A DNA stretch of 42,426 nt from Methanimicrococcus sp. OttesenSCG-928-J09 (GTDB lineage: Archaea; Halobacteriota; Methanosarcinia; Methanosarcinales; Methanosarcinaceae). The position numbers were made by a program, and so were the translations under genes. The DNA is taken from assembly GCA_030266245.1 (NCBI GenBank), contig JAJDHP010000007.1, positions 1 to 42,426 on the forward strand, given 5' to 3'. A model generated the notes under the pieces. The model worked only from the letters and a program-made list of their open reading frames with translations. It made no database searches and had not been told where the DNA came from. This document shows positions 12,497-40,944 of the stretch, one piece after another (position 1 is the first letter of the stretch; each line of letters opens with the position of its first letter).

Positions 12497-13237
12497 ATGG
12501 AACCGATGGCAACTCTTATTGTGATAGGAATTTTGTCAAGTGTTTTTATATTCGGGTTAAAGACGGGGATTGGCTGCGGTTTTTCAAAAACCGGCTGGAA
12601 TGTTGTGTTTGTCTTGTGTCTTTTATACTTCGTTATTGCGCTTGTGGCGGGTTATTTCATGGATGCGATTGATGTCACATCCTTTATGAGTTCACCGTTA
12701 GCGGCTGCAATTCATATTACGCTTGCTTTGTTCTTATTGGGCGGCGGTATTGTCACAATGAAAAAGTGGCATTCCGGCTGTGATGTATCGAATAAAACTT
12801 TTTTAATCATGGTTTTACCGTGTCCGGTCTGTATGGCCGCGCTTCTTGTTTCATGTGTTGCTCTTTCAACTGTCGTTGATTTCAGCGGACTTGTCATTGG
12901 CGCGCTCGTCGGCGTTGTCTTTGTCATTTCAATTTTGGTCACGACCTTTGTAATGAAAAATTTGAGCAAAATCACGAAGAAACTGCATATCAACTTTGAC
13001 GGAACACCTGACACGCTCGGCGCGATCATGGTTTTTATCGGTCTCTTCTATCTGATTGCGGCAATAATGATTCCGGCATACATCAACGCAAGTTCTGCGC
13101 GTTCAAACATACCTGTATCATTTGGGACACCTGAGCTTGTTGCTTTATTCGGCATGATTCTTTTGATTTCCTTCGGAGCGGTACTGACAATTTCCGCAGA
13201 CAGAAGCCGTGAAAAAAGTATGAGTAGAAAGCACTGA
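12497..13237 (+). CDS. DUF2162 family putative transporter
   Basis: 246 residues, a multi-pass membrane protein with about seven hydrophobic segments: TLIVIGILSSVFIFGLKTG, VVFVLCLLYFVIALVAGYF, ITLALFLLGGGIVTM, LIMVLPCPVCMAALLVSCVA, LVIGALVGVVFVISILVTTF, AIMVFIGLFYLIAAIMI and LVALFGMILLISFGAVLTI. The CPVC motif inside a membrane segment is notable (CPCPVC-type metal or thiol site possible). The layout matches the DUF2162 predicted transporters of methanogens. It precedes a MotA/TolQ/ExbB gene and a DUF2149 gene, a set I recall being found near cobN-like genes in Methanosarcina. The substrate is not known. The ATG at 12497 is chosen; ATG 12506 is also possible. Confidence 0.75.
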   Translation: MEPMATLIVIGILSSVFIFGLKTGIGCGFSKTGWNVVFVLCLLYFVIALVAGYFMDAIDVTSFMSSPLAAAIHITLALFLLGGGIVTMKKWHSGCDVSNKTFLIMVLPCPVCMAALLVSCVALSTVVDFSGLVIGALVGVVFVISILVTTFVMKNLSKITKKLHINFDGTPDTLGAIMVFIGLFYLIAAIMIPAYINASSARSNIPVSFGTPELVALFGMILLISFGAVLTISADRSREKSMSRKH

Positions 13238-13360
13238 AGACAGAACAGAAATAAAAAAATTAAATTAAAATTTTAATGAAAACCTTAGGTTTTGGAATTT
13301 AGGGAAACTAAGGATTTAAAGAGATTTAAAAAGGGAATTCACACAGAGTAGGGGAATATT

Positions 13361-14029
13361 ATGGCAGAAATTGCATTATTATCTGATTTTGGATCAACCG
13401 TATCGTACATTACGTATATTTTTTCAAATTCGTTGTTGTACCCGGTTATGATTATATTGATTTTGCTGGTTATTTTATCATTAATTTTAGCCGGCGAATT
13501 TATTACGGAATACACACGCCGCCGCCGCGATCACGCGGTTTTGGAAAAAGAGACGCACCGCCTTTCAAAACTTATGAAATCTTCGGCATCTGAAGAAAGT
13601 AAAAATAAAGAAGCAGCATCTGTTTTAAGAGAATTAGCGGACAGCCAAACCCAAATGGTCGCTGCTTTTGCAAAGGATGCGGCTTCATCTGTTGAAGAAG
13701 GCGATGTCAATCACGTTGAAAAGATTGCTGATGATTATGAAGTCCGTATGATGAAAAGAACAGAAAAAACCAGAATTATTACAACCGTTGGCCCGATGCT
13801 CGGTTTGATGGGAACTTTAATTCCGCTCGGCCCTGCTTTGATCGGTTTGACGGACGGAAATATTGATGAGCTTGCTACAAACCTTGTAATTGCGTTTGCG
13901 ACAACAGTTATCGGTTTATTTGTTGCCGGCATCAGTTTCTGCTTGACCACAATCCGCAACCGCTGGTATTGGCAGGATATGATTGACATGGATTACATCA
14001 TTGATGCGCTGGGAGAGAAAAAGGAATGA
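13361..14029 (+). CDS. MotA/TolQ/ExbB proton channel family protein
   Basis: 222 residues. Three membrane segments: residues 25-50 (YPVMIILILLVILSLILAG), about 140-165 (TVGPMLGLMGTLIPLGPALI) and 172-200 (LVIAFATTVIGLFVAGISF). The last two form the conserved TolQ/ExbB core. A long charged cytoplasmic region separates segment one from two. TolQ/ExbB subunits form proton channels that energise partner proteins across the envelope. AGGGG precedes the ATG by seven bases. Its stop overlaps the next start (ATGA), so translation with DUF2149 is coupled; DUF2149 may act as the ExbD-like partner. Confidence 0.9.
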   Translation: MAEIALLSDFGSTVSYITYIFSNSLLYPVMIILILLVILSLILAGEFITEYTRRRRDHAVLEKETHRLSKLMKSSASEESKNKEAASVLRELADSQTQMVAAFAKDAASSVEEGDVNHVEKIADDYEVRMMKRTEKTRIITTVGPMLGLMGTLIPLGPALIGLTDGNIDELATNLVIAFATTVIGLFVAGISFCLTTIRNRWYWQDMIDMDYIIDALGEKKE

Positions 14030-14427
14030 GCCGTCACACCAGAAGAACAAAGCGCGGTTCAGTTTTTGCAGGCAGCACAGTTGACAACCCGATGAACAGT
14101 GTCGGCAACGTTTTTGACGTCGCGATGGTTTTTTCAGTAGCCTTGTTGGTTGCGCTTGTCATGTCGGCCGGACTTTCAGAACTTTTAACCGACCAGGATG
14201 TCACAATCGTTAAAAATCCGGGACAAGAAAACATGCAGATCATCCAAAAGACCGAAGAAGGTATTGAAATCATGGAAATCAATGCTGAAGAACAGATAGG
14301 CGGCGGTATCGGCGACGTTCTCGGAACAGCCTATCGTTTAGAAGACGGCCGCGTGATTTATGTGCCGGAAGGCAATGAAACAATCGGCGGTTCGAACACG
14401 ACTGCCGGTAATGGAACATTGAGTTAA
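14026..14427 (+). CDS. DUF2149 family protein, probable ExbD-like partner
   Basis: 133 residues, overlapping the ExbB-like gene by 4 bases. A basic N-terminus (MSRHTRRTKRG) leads into NPMNSVGNVFDVAMVFSVAL with one membrane segment (residues about 34-52), then a soluble domain expected outside the cell, including GTAYRLEDGRVIYVPEG and sequons NET, NTT and NGT. The topology (short cytoplasmic N-terminus, one helix, external domain) is that of ExbD/TolR, and the pair order ExbB-ExbD is typical. An aspartate in the helix start (FDVAMVF) fits a proton path. DUF2149 is known from methanogens; the ExbD analogy is inference. Confidence 0.8.
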   Translation: MSRHTRRTKRGSVFAGSTVDNPMNSVGNVFDVAMVFSVALLVALVMSAGLSELLTDQDVTIVKNPGQENMQIIQKTEEGIEIMEINAEEQIGGGIGDVLGTAYRLEDGRVIYVPEGNETIGGSNTTAGNGTLS

Positions 14428-14475
14428 TCATTGAGATTAACTCCTTTTTTTTGTTTTTTACTTTTTTATTCTTTT
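14421..14475 (+). terminator. Hairpin and T-tract terminator after DUF2149
   Basis: GAGTTAATC (14421-14429) pairs perfectly with GATTAACTC (14435-14443) around the loop ATTGA, followed by CTTTTTTTTG and further T-runs. The stop codon of DUF2149 (14425-14427) is inside the stem. Confidence 0.8.
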
Positions 14476-14509
14476 TCCGGATGTCATAAAACCCGAGGGA
14501 GACTTTTTG

Positions 14510-14694
14510 ATTTTGTCAAAAGCTGTGCGGCTCGCGCGTGCGGGGGGTCGCAGGAACGGAAGCGGTAAGGCAGCAGGCAACAAGCAGACTAAGTTAGCAG
14601 CAGCAAACAGAAACAGTAAGATAACAGCAGCAAATCGGAATTGGCAAGGCGTGTAGCAAATTAGTTTTGCATTGGCAGGTGCATTTAATTATAG
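14510..14694 (-). repeat. Repeat A, copy 4
   Basis: Read on the minus strand it begins CTATAATTAAATGCACCTGC then CAATGCAAAACTAATTTG and ends CGCACGCGCGAGCCGCACAG then CTTTTGACAAAATC. The interior is rich in TGCTGCTAAC/TTACTGTTTC. It lies between convergent genes. Confidence 0.75.
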
Positions 14695-14853
14695 AAAGAA
14701 ATGAAAACATCGGAAAACACTGATGACAGCAGTAAAAACAAATAAGAATGAAATAGGATTTTCTATGAGATAAGAAAGAAATGAAAACATCGGAAAACAC
14801 TGATGACAGCAGTAAAAACAAATAAGAATGAAATAGGATTTTCTATGAGATAA
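14694..14853. repeat. Exact 80-bp tandem duplication
   Basis: The segment beginning GAAAGAAATGAAAACATCGG occurs at 14694-14773 and again at 14774-14853 with no difference seen. It abuts the left end of repeat A copy 4. Confidence 0.9.
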
Positions 14854-14921
14854 AAAAGAGATGAAAAAAAGAGGTGATTAATTCGCCTTTATCATATTTT
14901 TAAAAATACGAAAAAAGAAGA

Positions 14922-29007: not shown

Positions 29008-30300
29008 TTAATCTTTAACGTTGCTTAAACCGAGTGCGCGGGCACTGATTTCAACGATGTCTTCAATGACGATGTCAGCGCGCGGGTTGTCTTCTGCCAA
29101 AAGGGCGTCGCGTCCGTCAGAGAGGTTTCTCTTACAGAACGGGCAAGCCTGAGCGAAGATGTTGGTCTGCGTCTTTTGTTCGCCTTCAGGGTAAAGAACT
29201 TCCATTGCGTCGCCAACTCTTGCTTTTGCAATTGAAAGAGCGAGTTCGGGCATACCGGCTTTCACACCGCCGCCGGCACCGCAGCATCTCTGGTATGCTC
29301 TGTTGCGGTCCATTTCGACGTATTCCATGCCGGGCATGCTCTGGAGAACCTTTCTGGGTTCTTCATAAACACCGACGTGGCGGCCGAGGTGGCACGGGTC
29401 GTGGTATGTAACAATTTTGTCTTCGCCGTAGGGTTTCTGCACCCATTCAACTTCTCCTGCTTCAATCTTTTCAGCAAGGAACTGTGAAACGTGCATGACC
29501 TTAAAGGGAGTTTCTTCGCCAAGAAGTCTGGGCCAGTCAACGAGAGATGCTCTGAAACATCCGGAGCAAGCATAGAGAACGGTTTTTGCGCCCTTTGCTT
29601 TAATCTTTTCAACGTTGGACTGCGCGAGTCTCTTCGGAAGGTCTTCTTCTTTGAAGTACTGACCGGTTCTGATCAAAACGGAACCGCAGCAGGCTTCTTC
29701 TTCGCCGAGTGTACAGAATTCAACACCGAGTTTGTTCAAAACACGGGCGGTTGAAACGGCGAGGTTGGTCTGCTTCATACCGGCTGTACAGCCCATGAAG
29801 TAGAGAATGTCTGCTTTGTCAGCGATTTTAACATCATCAGGAATCCAGCTTAAACGGTTTTCTTTCGGCTCGTTGTAGGAGTTGAAAGTGTCGCTGATGA
29901 TTTTAGGCATTGTACCCTGCTTGCCGTAAGGACCTGTGCCTCTCTTCACAAGGTTGGCGCGCATGGCTTCCCAGAGTTCGACGGTGTTGATACCGGCTTC
30001 ACAAACAGTTGCGCAAATACCGCAGGTTGTACAGCCGTGAACATCGTCCTTGAATTCAACGAATTGTTCTTCCGGAATTTCTTTGGGACCGAAAAGTGTT
30101 GCCCACATACCGTAGGATTTGTCAACAAAGCGTTTCCAGCGGTAAATTTTGTCGCGCGGGGAAAGACCGGGGCGGAAGCCTGAACCTTCATAGGTCGGGC
30201 ACCATTCGGCGCACTCACCGCAGCGCATACAGCCGTCAAGTTCCATGAGCTGAACAGCTGTTAAATTTGTCATCTTAAGTGACGGTTCTCTTCTTGCCAT
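29008..30300 (-). CDS. hdrD: Heterodisulfide reductase subunit D (HdrD)
   Basis: 430 residues, cytoplasmic catalytic subunit bound to the membrane through HdrE. It reduces CoM-S-S-CoB, the final electron-accepting step. Two 4Fe-4S motifs lie near the N-terminus: [11 protein letters not shown] (C24-C34) and [11 protein letters not shown] (C90-C100). Two CCG domains follow: [12 protein letters not shown] with CSGC, and [12 protein letters not shown] with CPFC, the second built for the noncubane active-site cluster. Length and order match Methanosarcina HdrD (fused HdrC/HdrB). It starts at ATG 30300, sharing one base with the hdrE stop (TAATG), and its ribosome binding site GGAGG lies inside the hdrE end, so translation is coupled. 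Confidence 0.95.
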
Positions 30301-31145
30301 TAATGTTCGCCTCCTTTGTTAACGATCATTGTCAGCGGTGCCGTAATCATGTGGATGTACTTGCTGTACGGGATGAATGCGAAACCGACGAAGAGTGCAA
30401 GAACGCTGTGCGTTAATGCGATTTCCTGAACGTAGGTTAAGAACGGGGACAAGCCGCCGAGCGTCCAGATCAGATAATCATAGAAAATAAAGTCATATCC
30501 GGTAAAGTCAGTGATGCCGATTGCGATATATCTGCCTGCGTGAGCGACAAAACCGGTCACGATGACGATAACCAATGTGACGAGCAAAATTGCATCGTAA
30601 GAGTTGGTGTTTTCTCTGACTTTGGAGATAAAGAGTCTGCGTGCGACTGCGATAATCACACCGAGGAAAAGTAAGTAACCGAGCAATTGGTTCGGAAGCT
30701 GAAGGAACTGTCTGAACCATTCAGGTTCAATAAAGTGAATGCCGACCATGTGAATAAGTTCAACGGCGAACATTAAACCGGACAAAGAGAAAAGACCCAT
30801 CCATCCGATAAAGATACACATGTGCATGAACCAGCGGAGCGGGTCTGCGCGTGCAGTTCTGCGTAAAAGAAGAACATCAAAAACCAAAGTAACTAAAATG
30901 TTCTGACCGTGGTGGACAGAATGCGCTCTAAGTTGTTTCCAATACGCTTTTAAGAAGATGACGATGCTACCGATAAATCCGTGTTTTCCTTCTTCCGGGT
31001 CGAGACCCCATGCGAGGGAACCCTGACCCCACTTGCGGACGTTAAAGTAAAGCCCGAGAACAAGAAGGAGGATAGCAAGGATAGATGTGGTCATCATAAC
31101 GACGAACGTAATCGAAACGCCGGAAATGCCTGAAAAATAATCCAT
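30300..31145 (-). CDS. hdrE: Heterodisulfide reductase subunit E, membrane cytochrome b (HdrE)
   Basis: 281 residues. Five or so membrane helices ([98 protein letters not shown]). Histidines in HSVHH, WFMHM, FVAHAG and LTHSVL are heme-b ligand candidates as in NarI-type cytochromes. It takes electrons from reduced methanophenazine to HdrD and helps build the proton gradient. GGAG lies eight bases before ATG 31145. The order hdrE-hdrD is that of Methanosarcinales. A TATA-like box at 31518 suggests a leader of about 350 bases. Confidence 0.93.
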
Positions 31146-31849: not shown

Positions 31850-34800
31850 TTATATATTGCGCCTTCTCGAGCCGTAGAAAATGGCGCCGACAATAATCAC
31901 AACGAAAGCGATTGCGATAATGCTTGACGTTGAGAAGGTCGGGTTTTGGATGAAGTCGCGAACTGAATTGACGGCTTTTGTGACTGTCATTTCAAACCCG
32001 TTGACTTCATTGACAGGTGTTCCTGAAACATCGCCGTCCGTTCCGACACCGGCGCTTTCGCCTTGTTCGGGGTTTTCTTCGCCTTCGTCACTGCCTTCAC
32101 CGTCGGCAGGATCGCCGGCTTCAACTGCTGTTGCGGTACCGTAGCCGCTTCCCGACGAAGAAGAGGAGGATTTTGTTTCAAGTTGCGGCTTATCACGTTC
32201 AGTCGCTTGTTTCACAATTTCCCAATACTTTTCTTCCTGATCCGGCGTTAATCCGAGAACAGCCATTTGACCGGCAACGAATGAATCCAAAGCCGGATTT
32301 CCGCAGCTGTGGTGACAGCAGGCAACGCCGTTTTCTAACACAGATTTGACATATGCTTCTGCCAATTGCTGTTTTTGAGCATCGGTTGCATCCCAGTAGC
32401 CTGTACGAATTGCTTCCATCATTCTGGCAGTCATAGACTGGTAAGAGTAGGAGAAAGCTTCCTTACCTTCGAGTCTGCCGCTTTCAACATAAGTTTTCAG
32501 AACTTCACTCCATAATTCATTACTCACCAGTTCGCCATCTGTCGCAACCGCCCATCCGTAAAGATTTTCGATGAATTCGGCAAACATTGTACTTCCCGAA
32601 TAACCTGCTGCTTCCATTGCTTCAATCCATTTCGGATTCAAATACCGAGAAGCCATATCTTTCATTAATGCTTCCTGCATCGTACTGATAACTTTGTCCC
32701 CGGCTTTGAAGTTGTCAATATTACTGGTATCCGCCATGTACATTTTTGGCAGTTTTCCGCCGTATTGTTTAGAAACCATGTTCATAACGCCGTAATACTG
32801 GAAAACATCATCATTATCCAGTGAATCATAGAGATTAGAAGATGAAGCAAAAAGCGAAGCATCGGTTCTTGCCAGCATCTGTTTGAGAGATTCCTGCATT
32901 GCCCGCTTCATAGCTAAACTGTTTGCATCATCGCCGCCCCAGAAATCATTATTGTAAACATACCCCATTTTAGAGAGATACAAATCAGCAATATCCTGCT
33001 GTGAAGTTTCATCATTCCACATGCCGCTGGAACTGATGAGATTACCGGTCCCGATTTCATATGTCCCCAACTGCTGAGCAAAGGTTCTGGCTTGAGCAAG
33101 CTTCTTAAGGTCGTCATCACTCAATCCCAAATTCTCATCTTTATTTACTTTTTGAAGAATCTTATAGATGTCATCTGTATTTGTTTTTATATTATTCTTA
33201 ACCCCTTTATTAACATCGCTTGCAGGATCAGTATGATTGTAAACATTCTTAATCGCCTGATCAATATACAATAACGCTTTGGGGAAACCATCCCGCATAC
33301 CTGCCGTATTGTAAACGATGTCAATTCTCGGACGAACTTTCTGAGTTCCGTCACTGAGAGTAACAATGAAAATATTTTCATCATCACTCTTGTAATCACT
33401 GTAATTCACAATTTTGCCGCCTTTAAAAGTGCCTGTTCCTGTGTATTGGTTGCCGCTCCATTGAGGCTCGCAGCCAAGCAGATAATAGATACATGCTTCC
33501 AAAGCACCTTCATCACGAATATATTCAACACCGAACCGCATGAAAGAAACAGTTTCGGGGAATTCATCAAACTCTTCATAATAAGAAGCAAGCATTTGTT
33601 CACCCATTGCTTTTCCGACTTTCCATGCAGCAGGGGTCGGATAAGTATCCGGATCAATACCATAGAAATTGCGACCGGTCGGCAAAACTGACGGATTTTG
33701 AATCGGGTCATTTCCGGATGTCGGAGAGATATACCCGCCGGACAAAGCACTCAAAAGGGATTGAGTCTCGGCATTACCGCAAGCTTTTAAGTTATCAGCA
33801 TATCTGTCACGGCCGGAACCGGTAACAAAATCAATTGAATCTTGATTAATCCAAGTTTGTTCTTGATAATTGTTAACATTATAATGAATTGTCAAAGCTT
33901 TATCAGTCGCTTGTTCCGCCGTATACCCATAATAAAGTGATTTGGAATCATCAGATGCTTTTAAAATGTCAACCACCTCGTCCACAAATTTATCAAAGCG
34001 GTCCTCATAAGATAGAAGATCATCATCTGAAAGTGCTTGGGCCGCTTCCAATCCGCCTTTGTGGAACACCATGAAACTGATGTCATAAATACCCGAATCT
34101 GCCCATTTATCAGAAACCCCCGAAACTTGGCTGAAATTTTTCTTCCAAGCATCTTTAAGATACGACCTCATCTTCGTGTCATCCTCAGGATATTGCTCGC
34201 ATCCTAAATCATAGTACATAATCGGACCGCGAATAAACAGTTCGATAAACTGCCTTTGATCTGCCGTACCGCCGAGTGTAGCATCCAGTGCATCATTGAT
34301 TATTTGATGATCTGTTTTTCCGCCTGCTTCTTTAGCACGAACATAAGCAACCACAAATTCATCAACATCTTTGTCACATTTTCCATTATAATAAGTTCCG
34401 ATTACCTCTTTTCCGGTTTTGTCATACATATAAACGACTTCAGAAGGAATAATATCACCATTGAAGTAAACTTCTTTGATAATTTCTTCGAAACGGAAAT
34501 TACCCCACATCGACCGAACCATGCTTGCCGCCTGCTCATCTGTCGGAGATTGCCCGTAAATATGCATACCAAGCGGAATCGCGCTTTCCATTACAGAATC
34601 CAAATAATTGTGAACCTGATTTTTGATAAAAGCTGTAAATTCGTCATCGTTCAGCCCCTTCATATATGAAGCAAGAACGACTCTCTTTGCAGCTTCTATT
34701 TCGACAGCAGATTTACCGGCTTTTTTGGCATCAGATTCCGCTTTAGAAAGATCTTTTGAGATAGATTCATTGTATTTGCTGAAATCCATTGCTGCATACA

Positions 34801-37800
34801 CGGATTCTATTTTGAAGAGATAATCATCAATAATCACTTGGCGATAAGCAGCAGATAATTCAGTACCGCCGCCGTAAGCAACATGCTTAGTATAGCTTTG
34901 GATAGCAGATTCTAATTCCAAAACTTCACCGTACAAGCCGCTTCGAACCAAAGGCGGCGTCAAATGGTCGATAATCAGTGCATCGCCTCTCATTTCAGCC
35001 GTCAGCCCTTCACCGACATTTGCAACAATATACGGATAAATATTTGGAAGTTTACCAATTAAATTTGGACCCCAATCCATATCTTTTTGAAGACCGACAG
35101 CAGTTCCCGGAAGCCACTCTTGTGTTCCGTGTGTTCCGAAATGAATCACAGCATCAGGCGTCCAGTCCTTATTTTGAATATTCCATATATCGTCTTTATC
35201 TAATCCTTTATTGAGCCAAAGATAAAAAGCAACATATTGATGTGTTGGCGCCATGTCGCCATGGTAGTCAACACTTGAAACGGAACCTAAATCACCTTCA
35301 ATTGCCTGCGTACTTGCCAATGCACGATCGGGCTGCGGCATTATCCAAACATCACCGGTCTGAATGCATGGGAAAACAAAATAACGCATTCCCCTATATG
35401 CAGGGTTTCCGTTACCAAGAATTCCGTCTGTATCCTCCCAAATCATACCGCTTTGGTCTTTTGAAAGTTCACCGGTCCATGGAGTTCCCCAGGTTTTATT
35501 CAGCTCATCACTTAATTCTTGAGGAAGAGCACCTTCATCCAGCCAAATTTTGTAATCATCAACAGGCATCAAACGGCAGCCCCACCAATCTTTGGGGTTA
35601 TTGCCGGCTTCAAGATAATCAATATAATCCTGAACCATGGTTTTTAAAACGCCGGGTGCATGAGAACCGACATTTATTCCTTGAGACCACATCAACCGAC
35701 GCAGATTTTCTTCTGTTAAAACCTTTTTACGCCACTCATCATCTGATTGATCCGTTTTATATACATAATCGTATTTTCCGGGAGTTGAAGATTCCGCAGC
35801 GTAAGGCAATTTATTATAATCAATATTATATCCGCCCAAATCTACATTTTCACCCAAAGTTCTATTATAAACAGAATAACTTCCTGTTTTTCTCATATTT
35901 TCAAGAAGTCCGTCTTGATTTGACGCACCGGTGAAACTGGTAATGACATCCATATAATTTGCTCCGATATCGGCTTTCCCCGGAGGGTAGTTGTAATACA
36001 AGAGAGCAATATCTTTGTCAGCGTTATCTTTTTGTTTCAAATGAGCCCAAGCTGCTGCTCTTTCAGCAGCCCATTCAATTTGTTCAGGGTAGCCGACAGA
36101 ACCGCGGTTCATATGACCTAAAACAATAAAATCAAAAATGCCGTCACGATTCGGCGACAGTGTCATGCGGCTGAGACCCGAACTTTGAATCATGCTGTTT
36201 CGATCACTGATGACATCAGAACCGTGATCTTTAACATTATAAGTTGAGAAAATACCTTTAATAACTGAAATATCCATGGTTTCCAGTTGACGAATACCTT
36301 CATAGTAATTCCAGTAATTCAATCCGAAATTCTTAATGGAAACCGCGGCATCAATCTGTCGAAGTTCTCCGGTATTCGGATCAGTCCAAGTATAATAATC
36401 AGGAATGTTGTCATATGTTTCATATCCGACAATGACATTTACATTTTGACTTTCTAAAGCACGAATCAAGTCATCGGTTCCGGAACCGATGTCGGACAGG
36501 AACATCCAAATTCCAACAGTAGGGTTTTCAGAATTATAACCATTTGTTTTATACCAGCTCATGTAATTGTCCAGCTCATCGAAATGAATACGCTGTCCTT
36601 CAGCATTTAAATGGTAATAACCGATATTGGATTGAGCCGCAAAATATTTTGTATATTCCCAAGATGTGATGCGTTTGCTTTCAACAATCTTAAAAGAATT
36701 GCCGGTACTCTGCTTTAAGATATAATGAAGAAAACGCATGCTTCTTTCAGATCCGTCTGCATCAACACCAAAATTGATGTTGCGAACTCCTTCATTAACT
36801 TCTGTTGGGAAATTAAGCATTGGACCACTCATAATCTTGCTGCCGATTCCAAAAGATGGTGTGCCATCTGATTTCGGATAGATTACAATTCCGAATTTAT
36901 CCGTAGGAATTGACAGATAAGAAGCGTGGCTATATTCGTGAGATAAATCAGACCGCAAAGGATTATCAGAAACTTTGAAATAAAAACCATCTAAGATGAG
37001 ATAATCATATTTTTTCTCATTCAAAATTTTATTTAGATGTGTGATTTGTTCCAAATCAGCCTGTGTTTGTCCATCACCCATTGTTGTGTTAAAAGAGGGT
37101 TCAATCGTAAAATTCAAAAAACCGCCGTAAACGCTATTCTCGTATATTTTAAGATACTGAGTCAAATTAGTCGTTTGATCACCAATGTATAAAACTTCAA
37201 TTTTTCGAAGACCTTTTATCTCTTTTTGAAGTTCATCAGGGATTTGTTTCGCATTCAGCCGATCTTGATCAATAAATGAAGCAGCTTCAATTAAGAATCG
37301 GTCACCCCAAATCAAAGAAGCTGTTTTATCTGACACAACCATTGACTGAGTATAGAATTTGTAAAGAGCGGACTTATCCTGATCTTCCTTTTCAGCAAAT
37401 GATTTATTAAAATATTCAGGCGGATGAACATAATTTTCCATTGAAATCAATTTTGTTTTGTTTTCAGATGCCTGGGCTGCTTTTAATGCCCCTTCAATAT
37501 CTTTGTATTCACCAAACATATCAAAGAAAATAACATCATAATTGCTGAATTCCCCATCGCTTGCCATTTTTAAAAGAGCAGGATTGATAGCCGTTGTATT
37601 CATTTCATAGCCGGAAACATAAACAAAATCATAATAGCCGCCGTAATACATGTCATTGACCGCAAGTTCAGCCCCTTTCAATTCTGAACTTCCGACATAC
37701 AAAATATTAATACGCTGGTCTTTCGGAACTTTAACAACAACATTGCAAGTCATTTCAAATTTAGACGAACTTGTTAAATCTGTAACTGTTGCTGTTATTT

Positions 37801-40129
37801 TTGCTGTTCCGGGTGCTTTGAAAGTCAATTTGCCATTACTTACAGAAACAACATTAGTGTTGCTTGACTTCCAACCAATCATATTATCTGAATTAAACGG
37901 ACGGATTGTATAATCTAAAGTCAAAGATGAGACTTCACCGTATGTTGCCGAAATACGGGAATCGGATAAAGAAACATATGCAACAGGAGGATAAACATAC
38001 AAATCGTGTAAAACGGATACATCAGGGTATTGATCGGAAGTGCCTTCGATAAATGCATATCCTTGTTTATGCGTTCGAACAACACCATTTTTATCAACAG
38101 TTGCAACGGATTCATCATCTGATGTCCAGACAAAATTCTGATTGTTAATTTTGGGGTCAATTTCAATCTTATACCAAGAATTAACAGGCCAGTCCATAAG
38201 CTCATCAATTTCAATTTCATCATCAAAAACTTCTGCAGGAACTAATAAGCGATATGCTTCTTTTAAATCATAAAGTACAGAAACAATTTCCAAAGAATCA
38301 ACGGTTTCAGAATCCGCATGGAATTTGTCAATGACTGATTGAGCTGCGGTCATTTTTTCGTTGAATTGATTCCATGAATCGGCAGTATAATCATTTTCAT
38401 CCAATTTTGAAAAAACATAAACCGAATTTCGAAGAGCTTCTTTTTCCAATTCACCGGATTCGATTAACGCATCGAAGAGATCTGAATAATAAAACGATGG
38501 TTGATCCATGTCGTTAAAAGGACGATTTTTCAAATAAGAATACCAAAACTTGCCGAAAGATTGTTCGGGCGGAACATCCGATAAATCTTCTTTGTAATCT
38601 GCCGGATTGAAATAAGGCTGATTTTCATCCATCAGGAAATTATACAGACCTTCGCCCCAAACAAATTGGTGACTGTAATTTTTCTTATGTTCCGCAGAAA
38701 TCAGAGATGGAAGATTATGATTAATATTTACAGCACCGGTTTCCCGGATGCTTTTCTGCAGATCCGGAAGAAAACTGCTGTCTGATGAAGCGATTAAAAA
38801 CAGATAGAAGGCATCATATTGAGTAGAAGAAGAAATGAATGCATTACGTGAACTTGTAGCTGTTCCTCCGATAAGATCGCAGTCATAGAACTTGGAATCG
38901 TCATAGACAAACATTTCAGGTACATTTCTTGAAACATTTTCTTTCGGAGCAAAAATTGTAAAATACGGACCGGATTTAATTTTAATGGTGCCGGAAACAG
39001 AGTCGGAGAATTTAGCAATAATTTCTGCCGTACCGCTTGCCTTAAGATCAACAATTCCGAAATCGTCCGGCTCTGCAACAGCATTGTTATCAGAACTCCA
39101 CTCTAATGCAGGAGAAACTCTTGATAAACCCATCTGTGTAAAAACCATTGGTTTTAATGCTTCAACGCTTCCTATTTTTCGCTGGATCGTATCATCTTTA
39201 AATTGAATAGAAGTTATGCCGTCTACAGCGGCTTCATTATAAAGTGCCTGTTTGAGGTTATGCAAAGCGGAAATGCAATCAAGAACGGAAATATCTTCTT
39301 GATTCAAGACGGATTTCGCTTGTGTTAACTCGCTGCCTGAATACCCTATAGAATCCGCTTTTTTAATCATTTTTTCTAATGCCGCTTGTGCATAAAGAGG
39401 AGTTAAAGAATCACTTGTAAAATCGCTGTCATAGTAAGTTTCCAATATTTGTGAAAGCACTTCATCACTGATATTTTCAGAAATAAAATTATAATCATTC
39501 CACCCTGCGATAAAAGAGATATCAAAAAAGTCAGGAATATAAGCAGGTGCAACAGAAGGGTCAGCCGCAGGCTGAATTTGTTGAGAAGTAAAAAGCGGAA
39601 TACCGTTTTCATGAGCATCTATAAAATTTAAGTAAGACAAATCAGAATTCCAAAAAGCTGCTTTATTAAGAATTGGAATAAAAACAATATCATAAGCAGA
39701 CAAATCCATAAGGTTCATAAAATCTGTATTTAAATATCCGGTAGAGGTATAATTTACAAATTCATTATTTTCTCCGGAAATTGGACCGATAATTAAAACT
39801 TCCAATTTGTCGCCTGCGATAACAACATCACATATTTTTTGTGCCCAATCATCTTTGTCCCAATAATAAACGGTTGTTGTTCCCGGCTGAGCCGCAGTTA
39901 TTTTATTGCCATTAATTTCCAAAACGGCCGGATTGTCAGATTCTATTTCTGTTACGCCTGCGGGTAAGTCGAGTGTAAAAGACTCACCTTCAAACAAATA
40001 GATACGAGTTGAATATTCTGTTTCTGCCAATGCATTTCCGGAAAACAGAACAAACAAAAGACACAGTATAAAACCAAAATAAATTAATCGTGATGTTAAA
40101 AGACTTATTTTAGATAACGAAAAAACCAT
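31850..40129 (-). CDS. Giant secreted, membrane-anchored CobN-like protein with Ig-like domains
   Basis: 2759 residues. A signal peptide (1-36, ending NALA) precedes four bacterial Ig-like (Big2-type) domains at about 37-105, 303-387, 638-716 and 717-802. Flavodoxin/CobN-N-terminus-like modules lie between them and from 805 (RINILYVGSSEL; YDVIFFDMFGEY). The CobN/magnesium-chelatase H-type core spans about 1190-2640: IALLYYNYPPGKADIG (1374), HFGTHGTQEWLPG (1663), IIDHLTPPLVRSGLYGE (1719) and CCHHSCGNP near the end. A Ser/Gly/Glu linker and one helix (SIIAIAFVVIIVGAIFYG, then RRRNI) anchor the C-terminus. Cytosolic CobN is 1200-1300 residues and inserts cobalt in corrins with CobST; here the core is predicted to face outside, where ATP is absent. 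Pore, carrier or tetrapyrrole-binding use is inference. GGGGAG precedes the ATG. Confidence 0.88.
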   Translation of the reverse strand: MVFSLSKISLLTSRLIYFGFILCLLFVLFSGNALAETEYSTRIYLFEGESFTLDLPAGVTEIESDNPAVLEINGNKITAAQPGTTTVYYWDKDDWAQKICDVVIAGDKLEVLIIGPISGENNEFVNYTSTGYLNTDFMNLMDLSAYDIVFIPILNKAAFWNSDLSYLNFIDAHENGIPLFTSQQIQPAADPSVAPAYIPDFFDISFIAGWNDYNFISENISDEVLSQILETYYDSDFTSDSLTPLYAQAALEKMIKKADSIGYSGSELTQAKSVLNQEDISVLDCISALHNLKQALYNEAAVDGITSIQFKDDTIQRKIGSVEALKPMVFTQMGLSRVSPALEWSSDNNAVAEPDDFGIVDLKASGTAEIIAKFSDSVSGTIKIKSGPYFTIFAPKENVSRNVPEMFVYDDSKFYDCDLIGGTATSSRNAFISSSTQYDAFYLFLIASSDSSFLPDLQKSIRETGAVNINHNLPSLISAEHKKNYSHQFVWGEGLYNFLMDENQPYFNPADYKEDLSDVPPEQSFGKFWYSYLKNRPFNDMDQPSFYYSDLFDALIESGELEKEALRNSVYVFSKLDENDYTADSWNQFNEKMTAAQSVIDKFHADSETVDSLEIVSVLYDLKEAYRLLVPAEVFDDEIEIDELMDWPVNSWYKIEIDPKINNQNFVWTSDDESVATVDKNGVVRTHKQGYAFIEGTSDQYPDVSVLHDLYVYPPVAYVSLSDSRISATYGEVSSLTLDYTIRPFNSDNMIGWKSSNTNVVSVSNGKLTFKAPGTAKITATVTDLTSSSKFEMTCNVVVKVPKDQRINILYVGSSELKGAELAVNDMYYGGYYDFVYVSGYEMNTTAINPALLKMASDGEFSNYDVIFFDMFGEYKDIEGALKAAQASENKTKLISMENYVHPPEYFNKSFAEKEDQDKSALYKFYTQSMVVSDKTASLIWGDRFLIEAASFIDQDRLNAKQIPDELQKEIKGLRKIEVLYIGDQTTNLTQYLKIYENSVYGGFLNFTIEPSFNTTMGDGQTQADLEQITHLNKILNEKKYDYLILDGFYFKVSDNPLRSDLSHEYSHASYLSIPTDKFGIVIYPKSDGTPSFGIGSKIMSGPMLNFPTEVNEGVRNINFGVDADGSERSMRFLHYILKQSTGNSFKIVESKRITSWEYTKYFAAQSNIGYYHLNAEGQRIHFDELDNYMSWYKTNGYNSENPTVGIWMFLSDIGSGTDDLIRALESQNVNVIVGYETYDNIPDYYTWTDPNTGELRQIDAAVSIKNFGLNYWNYYEGIRQLETMDISVIKGIFSTYNVKDHGSDVISDRNSMIQSSGLSRMTLSPNRDGIFDFIVLGHMNRGSVGYPEQIEWAAERAAAWAHLKQKDNADKDIALLYYNYPPGKADIGANYMDVITSFTGASNQDGLLENMRKTGSYSVYNRTLGENVDLGGYNIDYNKLPYAAESSTPGKYDYVYKTDQSDDEWRKKVLTEENLRRLMWSQGINVGSHAPGVLKTMVQDYIDYLEAGNNPKDWWGCRLMPVDDYKIWLDEGALPQELSDELNKTWGTPWTGELSKDQSGMIWEDTDGILGNGNPAYRGMRYFVFPCIQTGDVWIMPQPDRALASTQAIEGDLGSVSSVDYHGDMAPTHQYVAFYLWLNKGLDKDDIWNIQNKDWTPDAVIHFGTHGTQEWLPGTAVGLQKDMDWGPNLIGKLPNIYPYIVANVGEGLTAEMRGDALIIDHLTPPLVRSGLYGEVLELESAIQSYTKHVAYGGGTELSAAYRQVIIDDYLFKIESVYAAMDFSKYNESISKDLSKAESDAKKAGKSAVEIEAAKRVVLASYMKGLNDDEFTAFIKNQVHNYLDSVMESAIPLGMHIYGQSPTDEQAASMVRSMWGNFRFEEIIKEVYFNGDIIPSEVVYMYDKTGKEVIGTYYNGKCDKDVDEFVVAYVRAKEAGGKTDHQIINDALDATLGGTADQRQFIELFIRGPIMYYDLGCEQYPEDDTKMRSYLKDAWKKNFSQVSGVSDKWADSGIYDISFMVFHKGGLEAAQALSDDDLLSYEDRFDKFVDEVVDILKASDDSKSLYYGYTAEQATDKALTIHYNVNNYQEQTWINQDSIDFVTGSGRDRYADNLKACGNAETQSLLSALSGGYISPTSGNDPIQNPSVLPTGRNFYGIDPDTYPTPAAWKVGKAMGEQMLASYYEEFDEFPETVSFMRFGVEYIRDEGALEACIYYLLGCEPQWSGNQYTGTGTFKGGKIVNYSDYKSDDENIFIVTLSDGTQKVRPRIDIVYNTAGMRDGFPKALLYIDQAIKNVYNHTDPASDVNKGVKNNIKTNTDDIYKILQKVNKDENLGLSDDDLKKLAQARTFAQQLGTYEIGTGNLISSSGMWNDETSQQDIADLYLSKMGYVYNNDFWGGDDANSLAMKRAMQESLKQMLARTDASLFASSSNLYDSLDNDDVFQYYGVMNMVSKQYGGKLPKMYMADTSNIDNFKAGDKVISTMQEALMKDMASRYLNPKWIEAMEAAGYSGSTMFAEFIENLYGWAVATDGELVSNELWSEVLKTYVESGRLEGKEAFSYSYQSMTARMMEAIRTGYWDATDAQKQQLAEAYVKSVLENGVACCHHSCGNPALDSFVAGQMAVLGLTPDQEEKYWEIVKQATERDKPQLETKSSSSSSGSGYGTATAVEAGDPADGEGSDEGEENPEQGESAGVGTDGDVSGTPVNEVNGFEMTVTKAVNSVRDFIQNPTFSTSSIIAIAFVVIIVGAIFYGSRRRNI

Positions 40130-40239
40130 AATTTAATCTCCCCTTATTGAATGAATAATTGATAAATTTGATGAAATTAATTTGAATAATTATTGAAACC
40201 GAATTCATAGTCGGAGAAAATCAAAGACAAAAGATTTTG

Positions 40240-40283
40240 AGATAAAAAATAAAAATAAAATCCGAATTTCTTCGAATTTTATT
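40240..40283 (-). terminator. Hairpin between the small module gene and the CobN-like gene
   Basis: AATAAAAT.CGAA pairs with TTCG.ATTTTATT (40254-40283, one mismatch), followed on the minus strand by GGATTTTATTTTTATTTTTT. It could act as a partial terminator so that the small gene is made in excess of the giant one. Confidence 0.55.
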
Positions 40284-40302
40284 ATGTTTGGAGTCCAAAA
40301 AT

Positions 40303-40944
40303 TCAGGACTTAAATTCAGTTACCAAAAGCTCAGCCATTTCCAAGGATTGAGCAGTCGTTGCTGTTCCCCATGGACCGACAGCATCATAGTTGTCAAAGA
40401 AATCAGCTGTAAAAGCGGTATCATAGTATGGGTTTCCATAACTGCCGACAATCACATAATTGCCAATGCTGTCTAAAACATAGTTTCCTCTTCTGTCAAC
40501 CTGATAAATCGGGCAAACTTCAGATAATTCAGCTGTGTCTCGGATTGTAAATCCTTGAGGCATCCAGCAGGTTTCGTCGTCATAACCGGTTCGAACAGAC
40601 ACCAAAAGTTTGCCATCTTCAGCTGCATTTGTTGCATATGTTGCAAATTCGACTTTGTACATGTTGACCATGTCAAAGAAAACGATGTCATAACCTGAAT
40701 ATGATGAATTCATTATGTTCCACAGTGTTGTACTGGGATTTGCCCAATCGTTGCCGTAGCCCATGATTGTCGTAGTTTCATATGTGTAATTTGTACCATT
40801 CACTTCAACAGTTCCGTTTGGTAATGCGTAAGCATCCCAGCCAGTTCCGACATACAGAATGTTAACATCTGCTGCACTTGCAGGAGCAAGAGCGACTATG
40901 AAAAGTGCCGTTAAAACGGCACTGAAAAGTAATGTTCTTTTCAT
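40303..40944 (-). CDS. Secreted single-module CobN N-terminal-like protein
   Basis: 213 residues from ATG 40944 with GAGGT seven bases ahead; the frame extends further upstream but without a start signal. The N-terminus (MKRTLLFSAVLTALFIVALA, then PASAAD) is a signal peptide. The mature part begins DVNILYVGTGWDAY and has YDIVFFDMVNMYK and a KLLVSVRTGYDDE block, matching the third module of the CobN-like giant (RINILYVGSSEL; YDVIFFDMFGEY). There is no C-terminal membrane anchor, so it should be released or held by partners. Sequons NGT, NYT and NSS suggest surface glycosylation. It lies 173 bases upstream of the giant, same strand, separated by terminator-like hairpins. Proposed role: soluble ligand-binding partner (inference). 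Confidence 0.8.
   Translation of the reverse strand: MKRTLLFSAVLTALFIVALAPASAADVNILYVGTGWDAYALPNGTVEVNGTNYTYETTTIMGYGNDWANPSTTLWNIMNSSYSGYDIVFFDMVNMYKVEFATYATNAAEDGKLLVSVRTGYDDETCWMPQGFTIRDTAELSEVCPIYQVDRRGNYVLDSIGNYVIVGSYGNPYYDTAFTADFFDNYDAVGPWGTATTAQSLEMAELLVTEFKS

Follow-up and report, generated by a model that had tools for sequence, protein, structure and literature searches.

The window analysed here, a stretch of 42,426 nt from Methanimicrococcus sp. OttesenSCG-928-J09, carries a gene for a giant CobN-like protein, a gene for a small secreted protein upstream of it, and a three-gene module, T-U-V (12497-14427), which lies 17 kb from the giant gene on the opposite strand (Table 1). M. 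blatticola, Ca. M. labiotermitis and Ca. M. odontotermitis belong to the same genus.

The reading frame of the giant is unbroken, and its core matches the CobN-Mg_chel profile (PF02514) over nearly the full length (profile positions 34-1089 of 1090; 661 bits against a cut-off of 24.5), by which the giant is, on sequence grounds, a member of the class I chelatase superfamily. Its predicted signal peptide, read by inspection as MVFSLSKISLLTSRLIYFGFILCLLFVLFSGNALA with cleavage before E, has a hydrophobicity of 2.5, and the C-terminal transmembrane helix is followed by the short basic tail GSRRRNI. Membrane segments at both the N- and the C-terminus, as in HmuS, are indicated by hydrophobicity. 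PF02368 (Big_2) was matched in two stretches, and further Ig-like parts flank aa 662-700. Signal peptide, Ig-like domains, complete CobN-type core and C-terminal anchor had been described in an earlier sequence-only reading of this DNA, and ORF, Pfam and hydrophobicity analyses confirm them.

Table 1. Positions in the window of the giant, the small secreted protein, the T-U-V module and the empty CobN site
Feature	Position	Strand	Evidence
Giant anchored CobN-like protein P0001, 2759 aa	31850..40129	-	ORF; Pfam CobN-Mg_chel
Giant: N-terminal signal peptide, aa 1-35	40025..40129	-	Hydrophobic stretch ending ALA before E; by inspection
Giant: head-like module 1, aa ~104-183	39580..39820	-	Independent profile, domain E 7e-4
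Giant: best Big_2 Ig-like stretch, aa 662-700	38030..38146	-	Pfam PF02368 E 4.9e-16
Giant: head module, aa ~805-898	37436..37717	-	Independent profile, domain E 2e-13
Giant: CobN/Mg-chelatase domain, aa 1163-2585	32375..36643	-	Pfam CobN-Mg_chel E 4.9e-198
Giant: His1667 in IHFGTHG, counterpart of HmuS His538	35129..35131	-	Alignment; conserved in all rows
Giant: DNDD, aa 2438-2441; Asp2441 at HmuS His1209 position	32807..32818	-	Alignment
Giant: CCHHSC motif, aa 2604-2609, juxtamembrane	32303..32320	-	26-row alignment
Giant: C-terminal membrane anchor, aa 2735-2752	31874..31927	-	Sequence; hydrophobicity 2.9
Small secreted protein P0002, 213 aa, one head-like module	40303..40944	-	ORF and profile match
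T: DUF2162 membrane protein, invariant PCPxC in hydrophobic stretch	12497..13237	+	Pfam E 3.1e-49; alignment; model pLDDT 85
U: MotA/TolQ/ExbB proton-channel homologue, HmuU-like	13361..14029	+	Pfam E 1.2e-10
V: DUF2149, single TM with conserved Asp, HmuV homologue	14026..14427	+	Pfam E 8.8e-29; alignment with HmuV
Empty site where sister species hold a T-U-V-linked CobN	14428..14921	.	Synteny

The modules preceding the core were compared by a profile built from CobN heads, from which the sequences of the window and the small proteins had been left out. In the giant it matched aa 806-896 (2e-13) and aa 120-181 (7e-4), and in P0002, which has a signal peptide and no anchor, aa 27-110 (domain E 8.7e-4, full sequence 3.4e-4). 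The likeness of P0002 to a CobN head module is weak though significant; the earlier view of it as a secreted single-module paralogue therefore stands as to secretion and the one head-like module, and only weakly as to paralogy. A P0002 homologue follows the CobN of Methanofrustulum in locus L025. Two other candidates were rejected: a further head module at aa 976-1091 of the giant, to which the independent profile gives no support, and P0004, a small secreted protein at the second CobN locus, for which profile comparison gave a probability of 1.7%.

The last ~70 residues are near-identical in both giants of this genome (window 31850-32060; L004:9339-9550), against an identity of ~43-54% over the remainder, a pattern suggestive of gene conversion or of strong selection acting on the anchor. 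HdrD-like and HdrE/NarI-gamma-like genes (29008-31145) lie on the same strand directly downstream of the giant; they adjoin no other family locus searched and were set aside as incidental.

An anchored family and its T-U-V partners

Genome contigs were searched for family members with an alignment of the CobN core. Apart from the giant, the window genome holds a second anchored CobN of 2043 aa (L004:9339-15470), and the remaining genomes of the genus hold one or two each; PF02514 proteins occur in 52 of 61 Methanosarcinaceae genomes. Nearly all of the ~95 collected homologues, which range from about 1200 to over 2700 aa (the frame around one match in genome G045 reaches 3346 aa), share a hydrophobic stretch at the N-terminus and a TM segment at the C-terminus, with CC.H.C, invariant in a 26-row alignment, just before the latter. 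The residues of the active site and of CCHHxC are almost invariant across archaea and bacteria. We define here a T-U-V-linked family, the DNDD family, by DNDD, CC[HDE]H.C, a signal peptide and a C-terminal anchor; all of these features are found in the giant, which also belongs to the clade and has T-U-V in its genome, with the adjacency broken. Since nearly all homologues carry both the signal stretch and the C-terminal TM segment, an outside location appears to be the rule in the DNDD family, and the extracytoplasmic placement of the giant in the sequence-only reading is supported. The DNDD family is a widespread and poorly studied group of class I chelatase-type proteins, predicted to be extracytoplasmic and C-terminally anchored, with the giant as a member.

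In the tree, the giant, its own paralogue and a rumen relative form one group (100/100), whose sister consists of M. blatticola and related T-U-V-linked CobNs (100/100), and the giant and the T-U-V-linked CobNs of the genus together join the T-U-V-linked copies of Methanosarcina (100/100). HmuS and cytosolic CobN fall outside this clade, and the DNDD family is sister group to both. Of 79 named loci, about half have T-U-V immediately before CobN, some of the others being without it at least partly since contigs or flanks end; the T-U-V-CobN loci span Methanosarcina, Methanolobus, ANME archaea, Nitrospira, Trichlorobacter and Caldimicrobium. A CobN follows within 4.5 kb downstream in 46 of 64 DUF2149 matches. 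Among the 61 Methanosarcinaceae genomes, DUF2149 and CobN occur together in 51, CobN alone in one, DUF2149 alone in none and neither of them in nine (Fisher p 6e-10, a value that ignores kinship).

In the window, the block from a HAD hydrolase to methanogenesis marker 2, T, U and V is kept, as are the downstream genes to DUF1638 and GatE; compared with sister genomes, the CobN that should follow V is missing. In four sister genomes a CobN stands directly behind T-U-V (one of these CobN genes being divided between two contigs), and in Ca. M. odontotermitis (L110) the site has likewise lost its CobN. No CobN remnant was found at the empty site of the window, which contains a perfect 80-bp tandem duplication (14693-14852). 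Because CobN has been lost at T-U-V and the giant is a phylogenetic cousin of the lost gene, we infer that the role of T-U-V partner passed to the giant or to its paralogue. Family membership and T-U-V partnership of the giant are the claims that we hold with high confidence; neither the T-U-V context nor the second anchored CobN was part of the sequence-only reading, which is partly supported as a whole.

Several observations were made at other loci. One CobN of Ca. M. odontotermitis (L020:6319-12474) is open only with two in-frame TAG codons read through, which in this pyrrolysine-using clade may be sense codons rather than marks of a broken gene. The second anchored-CobN group of the genus (L015, L018 and L019) adjoins a flavoprotein gene (Pfam Flavoprotein, AfpA-like) and is without T-U-V. 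A contig filed as Ca. Nitrosotalea (L056) carries a CobN and a CbiM close to those of ANME-type archaea (CbiM 90% identical), and is probably misbinned. In Methanosarcina loci a gene for an ArsR-like regulator points away from T-U-V in divergent orientation, and CobN is often followed by an FmdE-like gene (L033, L038, L043, L046, L094); metal-responsive control by way of these neighbours is possible.

The active site beside those of HmuS and CobN

HmuS (PDB 9d26) is the best solved match of the giant (phmmer E 1.1e-73). The family profile scored HmuS at 871 bits, CobN at 729 and ChlH at 709, and Foldseek with a model of the core returned HmuS at E 3e-30, with CobN and ChlH also matched. This model is of mixed quality (pLDDT 62.6), being good only in the C-terminal 490 residues; with the corrin/metal-site fragment of CobN 9fpc it gave a TM of 0.90 and an rmsd of 2.8 Å. 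The giant keeps the dyad of the superfamily, His1667 (HmuS His538) and Glu1707 (HmuS Glu577). Where HmuS has LSLDHxxEFMGG, the giant has SLDNDDVFQYYG, in which Asp2441 takes the place of the axial His1209; HmuS His1209, Glu1212, Gln1198 and Trp1202 correspond to Asp, Gln, Ser and Tyr. The active site thereby resembles that of CobN (LDSDD..Q, in the family LDNDD..Q) rather than that of HmuS (LSLDH..E). The HGR heme ligand of the HmuS Met79/His254 site is absent from the aligned neck region of the giant, where the Met79 position is ambiguous by one residue, and the Met-rich insertion of HmuS has no counterpart (1.7% Met in aa 1880-2110). Because dyad and DNDD are conserved, the heme residues of HmuS are missing and the core model matches as described, the pocket frame is predicted to be kept, with a centre of the CobN type rather than the heme type. 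The retained chelatase fold and pocket that the sequence-only reading had proposed to seek by structure prediction against CobN and ChlH are borne out by the dyad and the CobN fragment.

In Bacteroides, HmuS is a heme dechelatase anchored in the membrane (PMC12583661). Like the giant, HmuS/BtuS of Bacteroides and Porphyromonas is an extracytoplasmic, anchored protein of class I chelatase fold that keeps both dyad residues and a C-terminal Cys pair, a partial motif which the giant shares with HmuS only among the reference proteins and which reads CC[HDE]HTC in the family of the giant and CSxFVC in HmuS; unlike HmuS, the giant has extra Ig and head modules. The operons are also alike in their MotA/ExbB and DUF2149 genes: Porphyromonas hmuYRSTUV encodes HmuY, a receptor, CobN (HmuS), a hypothetical protein (HmuT), MotA/ExbB (HmuU) and DUF2149 (HmuV) (PMC10434189), and the arrangement is the same in hmu loci carried by plasmids of Bacteroides and Aureibacter. 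In T-U-V-CobN, however, DUF2162 replaces HmuT, which has no match to DUF2162, and neither HmuY nor HmuR was seen. CobN of CobNST (PDB 7c6o, 9uk9, 9fpc) shares with the giant the fold, the LD.DD..Q motif and the corrin/metal fragment, but it is cytosolic, has neither anchor nor any counterpart of CCHHSC, uses the ATPase CobST and forms a separate branch of the tree. A bacterial likeness to the family is found on plasmid pSZ77 of Trichlorobacter lovleyi, with DUF2162-MotA-DUF2149-CobN, DNDD and CC.HTC and likewise without CobST (PMC3403914); it differs by its TonB receptors, own ExbBD-TonB and cobalamin riboswitches and by having no Ig domains. The CobN-like BtuS proteins of Methanosarcina barkeri (MSBRM_0518 and MSBRM_1640), seen by proteomics, belong to the same archaeal family, and their authors propose heme-iron reuse (PMC10846266). 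The earlier statement that no known member fits an outside location is therefore contradicted by HmuS, by BtuS and by anchored CobN-like proteins that are routine in Methanosarcinaceae.

Substrate, energy and function

In five of nine bacterial loci (L091, L093, L097, L098 and L100) a cobalamin riboswitch leads the T-U-V-CobN operon, as it also does in T. lovleyi, while two HmuY-linked (hmu) loci showed none, and an RNA-family search of the window returned tRNAs only. CbiM-N-Q-O and cobalamin genes adjoin CobN in ANME-1-type loci and in Caldimicrobium, and in Runella CobN is surrounded by a Hyp nickel-hydrogenase cluster, with T replaced by a NicO/UreH-like permease. Because of these riboswitches and neighbours, the bacterial and ANME context points to a cobalt or nickel substrate, which we consider somewhat more probable than iron; no cobalt, nickel or cobalamin genes were found flanking the family in Methanosarcinaceae loci.

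Class I chelatases require an AAA+ motor (PMC7689651). In the six genomes of the genus, of which that of the window is 58% complete, TIGR02442 gave no match over its curated cut-off and PF01078 matches were weak and partial, so that the CobST/ChlID partners for which the sequence-only reading had proposed a search were not found over cut-off. Since no such motor was found over cut-off, ATP is not supplied outside the cell and U/V resemble ExbB/ExbD, the chelatase might be driven by protons through U/V, a proposal that we rate as somewhat short of probable. We know of no TonB receptors in archaea, and T. lovleyi has a separate exbB-exbD-tonB in the same cluster as T-U-V-CobN, so U/V would not simply be a TonB energiser.

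The best reading, in our view, is that T-U-V powers an extracytoplasmic (de)chelatase whose substrate is a tetrapyrrole of cobalt or nickel, and to this we give slightly less than an even chance; its family and partners are well supported, and substrate, direction and energy coupling are what we infer. Metal-tetrapyrroles would be captured by the additional head-like modules, and by the secreted protein with its single head, and handed on to the core. The core would distort the ring and extract its metal, which is most likely cobalt or nickel held in a ring of the corrinoid, F430 or porphyrin type. Proton flow through the ExbB/ExbD-like pair U/V would drive this work in place of the ATP motor CobST, which is unable to act outside the cell, and the freed ion would pass over CCHHxC to T (PCPxC) or to importers of the CbiM type (CbiM is present in 6/6 genus genomes) and enter the cell. 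Removal of the metal, rather than insertion or mere binding, is about evenly balanced.

An HmuS-type heme dechelatase, by which the giant would strip heme from host or diet of its iron at the cell surface and FeoB would import the Fe(II), would agree with HmuS as best solved match, with the homology of U and V to HmuU and HmuV, with FeoB in 5/6 genus genomes, with the heme that guts offer and with the change of the M. barkeri homologues with iron source (PMC10846266). We consider it unlikely, given the four replaced HmuS residues, the missing His-Gly-Arg ligand and Met-rich insertion, a T that is DUF2162 and not HmuT, the unseen HmuY/HmuR and the cobalamin regulation of bacterial relatives. 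Rather unlikely, too, is that the giant binds or remodels corrinoids or other tetrapyrroles at the surface without metal removal, for hand-over to an importer, or inserts cobalt late into metal-free corrinoids outside the cell. Such roles would suit the CobN-like active site and corrin fragment fold, the riboswitches and TonB receptors around bacterial relatives and the FecCD-family permeases of all six genus genomes (G000-G005), but insertion would have no CobST motor, and in such archaea CbiX inserts cobalt early. Early insertion by CbiX is described for haloarchaea (PMC8305020). Moreover, published genomes of the gut clade encode the full cobalamin and heme pathways, and transporters for B12 and heme are reported to be absent from them (PMC11362671). 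A surface tetrapyrrole or metal role, as first suggested from the sequence, is supported, whereas the cobamide scavenging attached to it is doubtful in view of these genomes, a doubt to which the FecCD permeases run counter.

That a degenerate fold survives in a structural or adhesive role at the surface, as Ig-like domains and the big variation in size might suggest, is improbable beside the almost invariant active-site and CCHHxC residues and the strict co-occurrence with DUF2149. That the giant is a normal cytosolic subunit of cobaltochelatase whose ends were misjudged, for which annotation as CobN by homology speaks, is hardly credible: signal peptide and anchor are conserved in nearly all homologues, CobST was not found over cut-off, and the giant falls far below the NCBIfam CobN equivalog cut-offs (best 668.5 bits against 1619; TIGR02257 330 against 822).

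The reading as a T-U-V-powered (de)chelatase is itself weakened because the cobalt/nickel context comes from other lineages, the giant and T-U-V are far apart on opposite strands, the M. barkeri homologues respond to iron source, the fold search with the T model gave no significant match and the core model is of mixed quality. It is also weakened because, to our knowledge, proton coupling of a chelatase is unproven anywhere. Quite tentatively, we generalise that T-U-V-CobN could be, in archaea and bacteria alike, a pmf-driven system that dechelates metal-tetrapyrroles outside the cytoplasm and imports the metal, with an ExbB/ExbD-like motor doing the work of the AAA+ ATPase of classical class I chelatases; on this view HmuS, not a TonB receptor, would draw its power from HmuUV, and gut methanogens would have added multi-head capture modules.

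HmuS (PMC12583661), the BtuS-like proteins of M. barkeri (PMC10846266) and a CobN without CobST in T. lovleyi (PMC3403914) are already known. Provisionally, the archaeal T-U-V link, the DNDD/CCHHxC family, the cross-phylum riboswitch association, the Ig and multiple head modules of the gut clade and the secreted head protein appear undescribed in the open-licence literature. Many archaea, according to the 2025 HmuS paper, have HmuS/CobN/ChlH homologues of unclear use without complete hmu operons (PMC12583661), and the anchored member with a CobN-like active site, tied to a proton-channel module in most Methanosarcinaceae, gives a testable answer to this question. If right, it would show by what means anaerobic archaea obtain cobalt, nickel or iron bound in tetrapyrroles, and how a chelatase can operate in a place without ATP.
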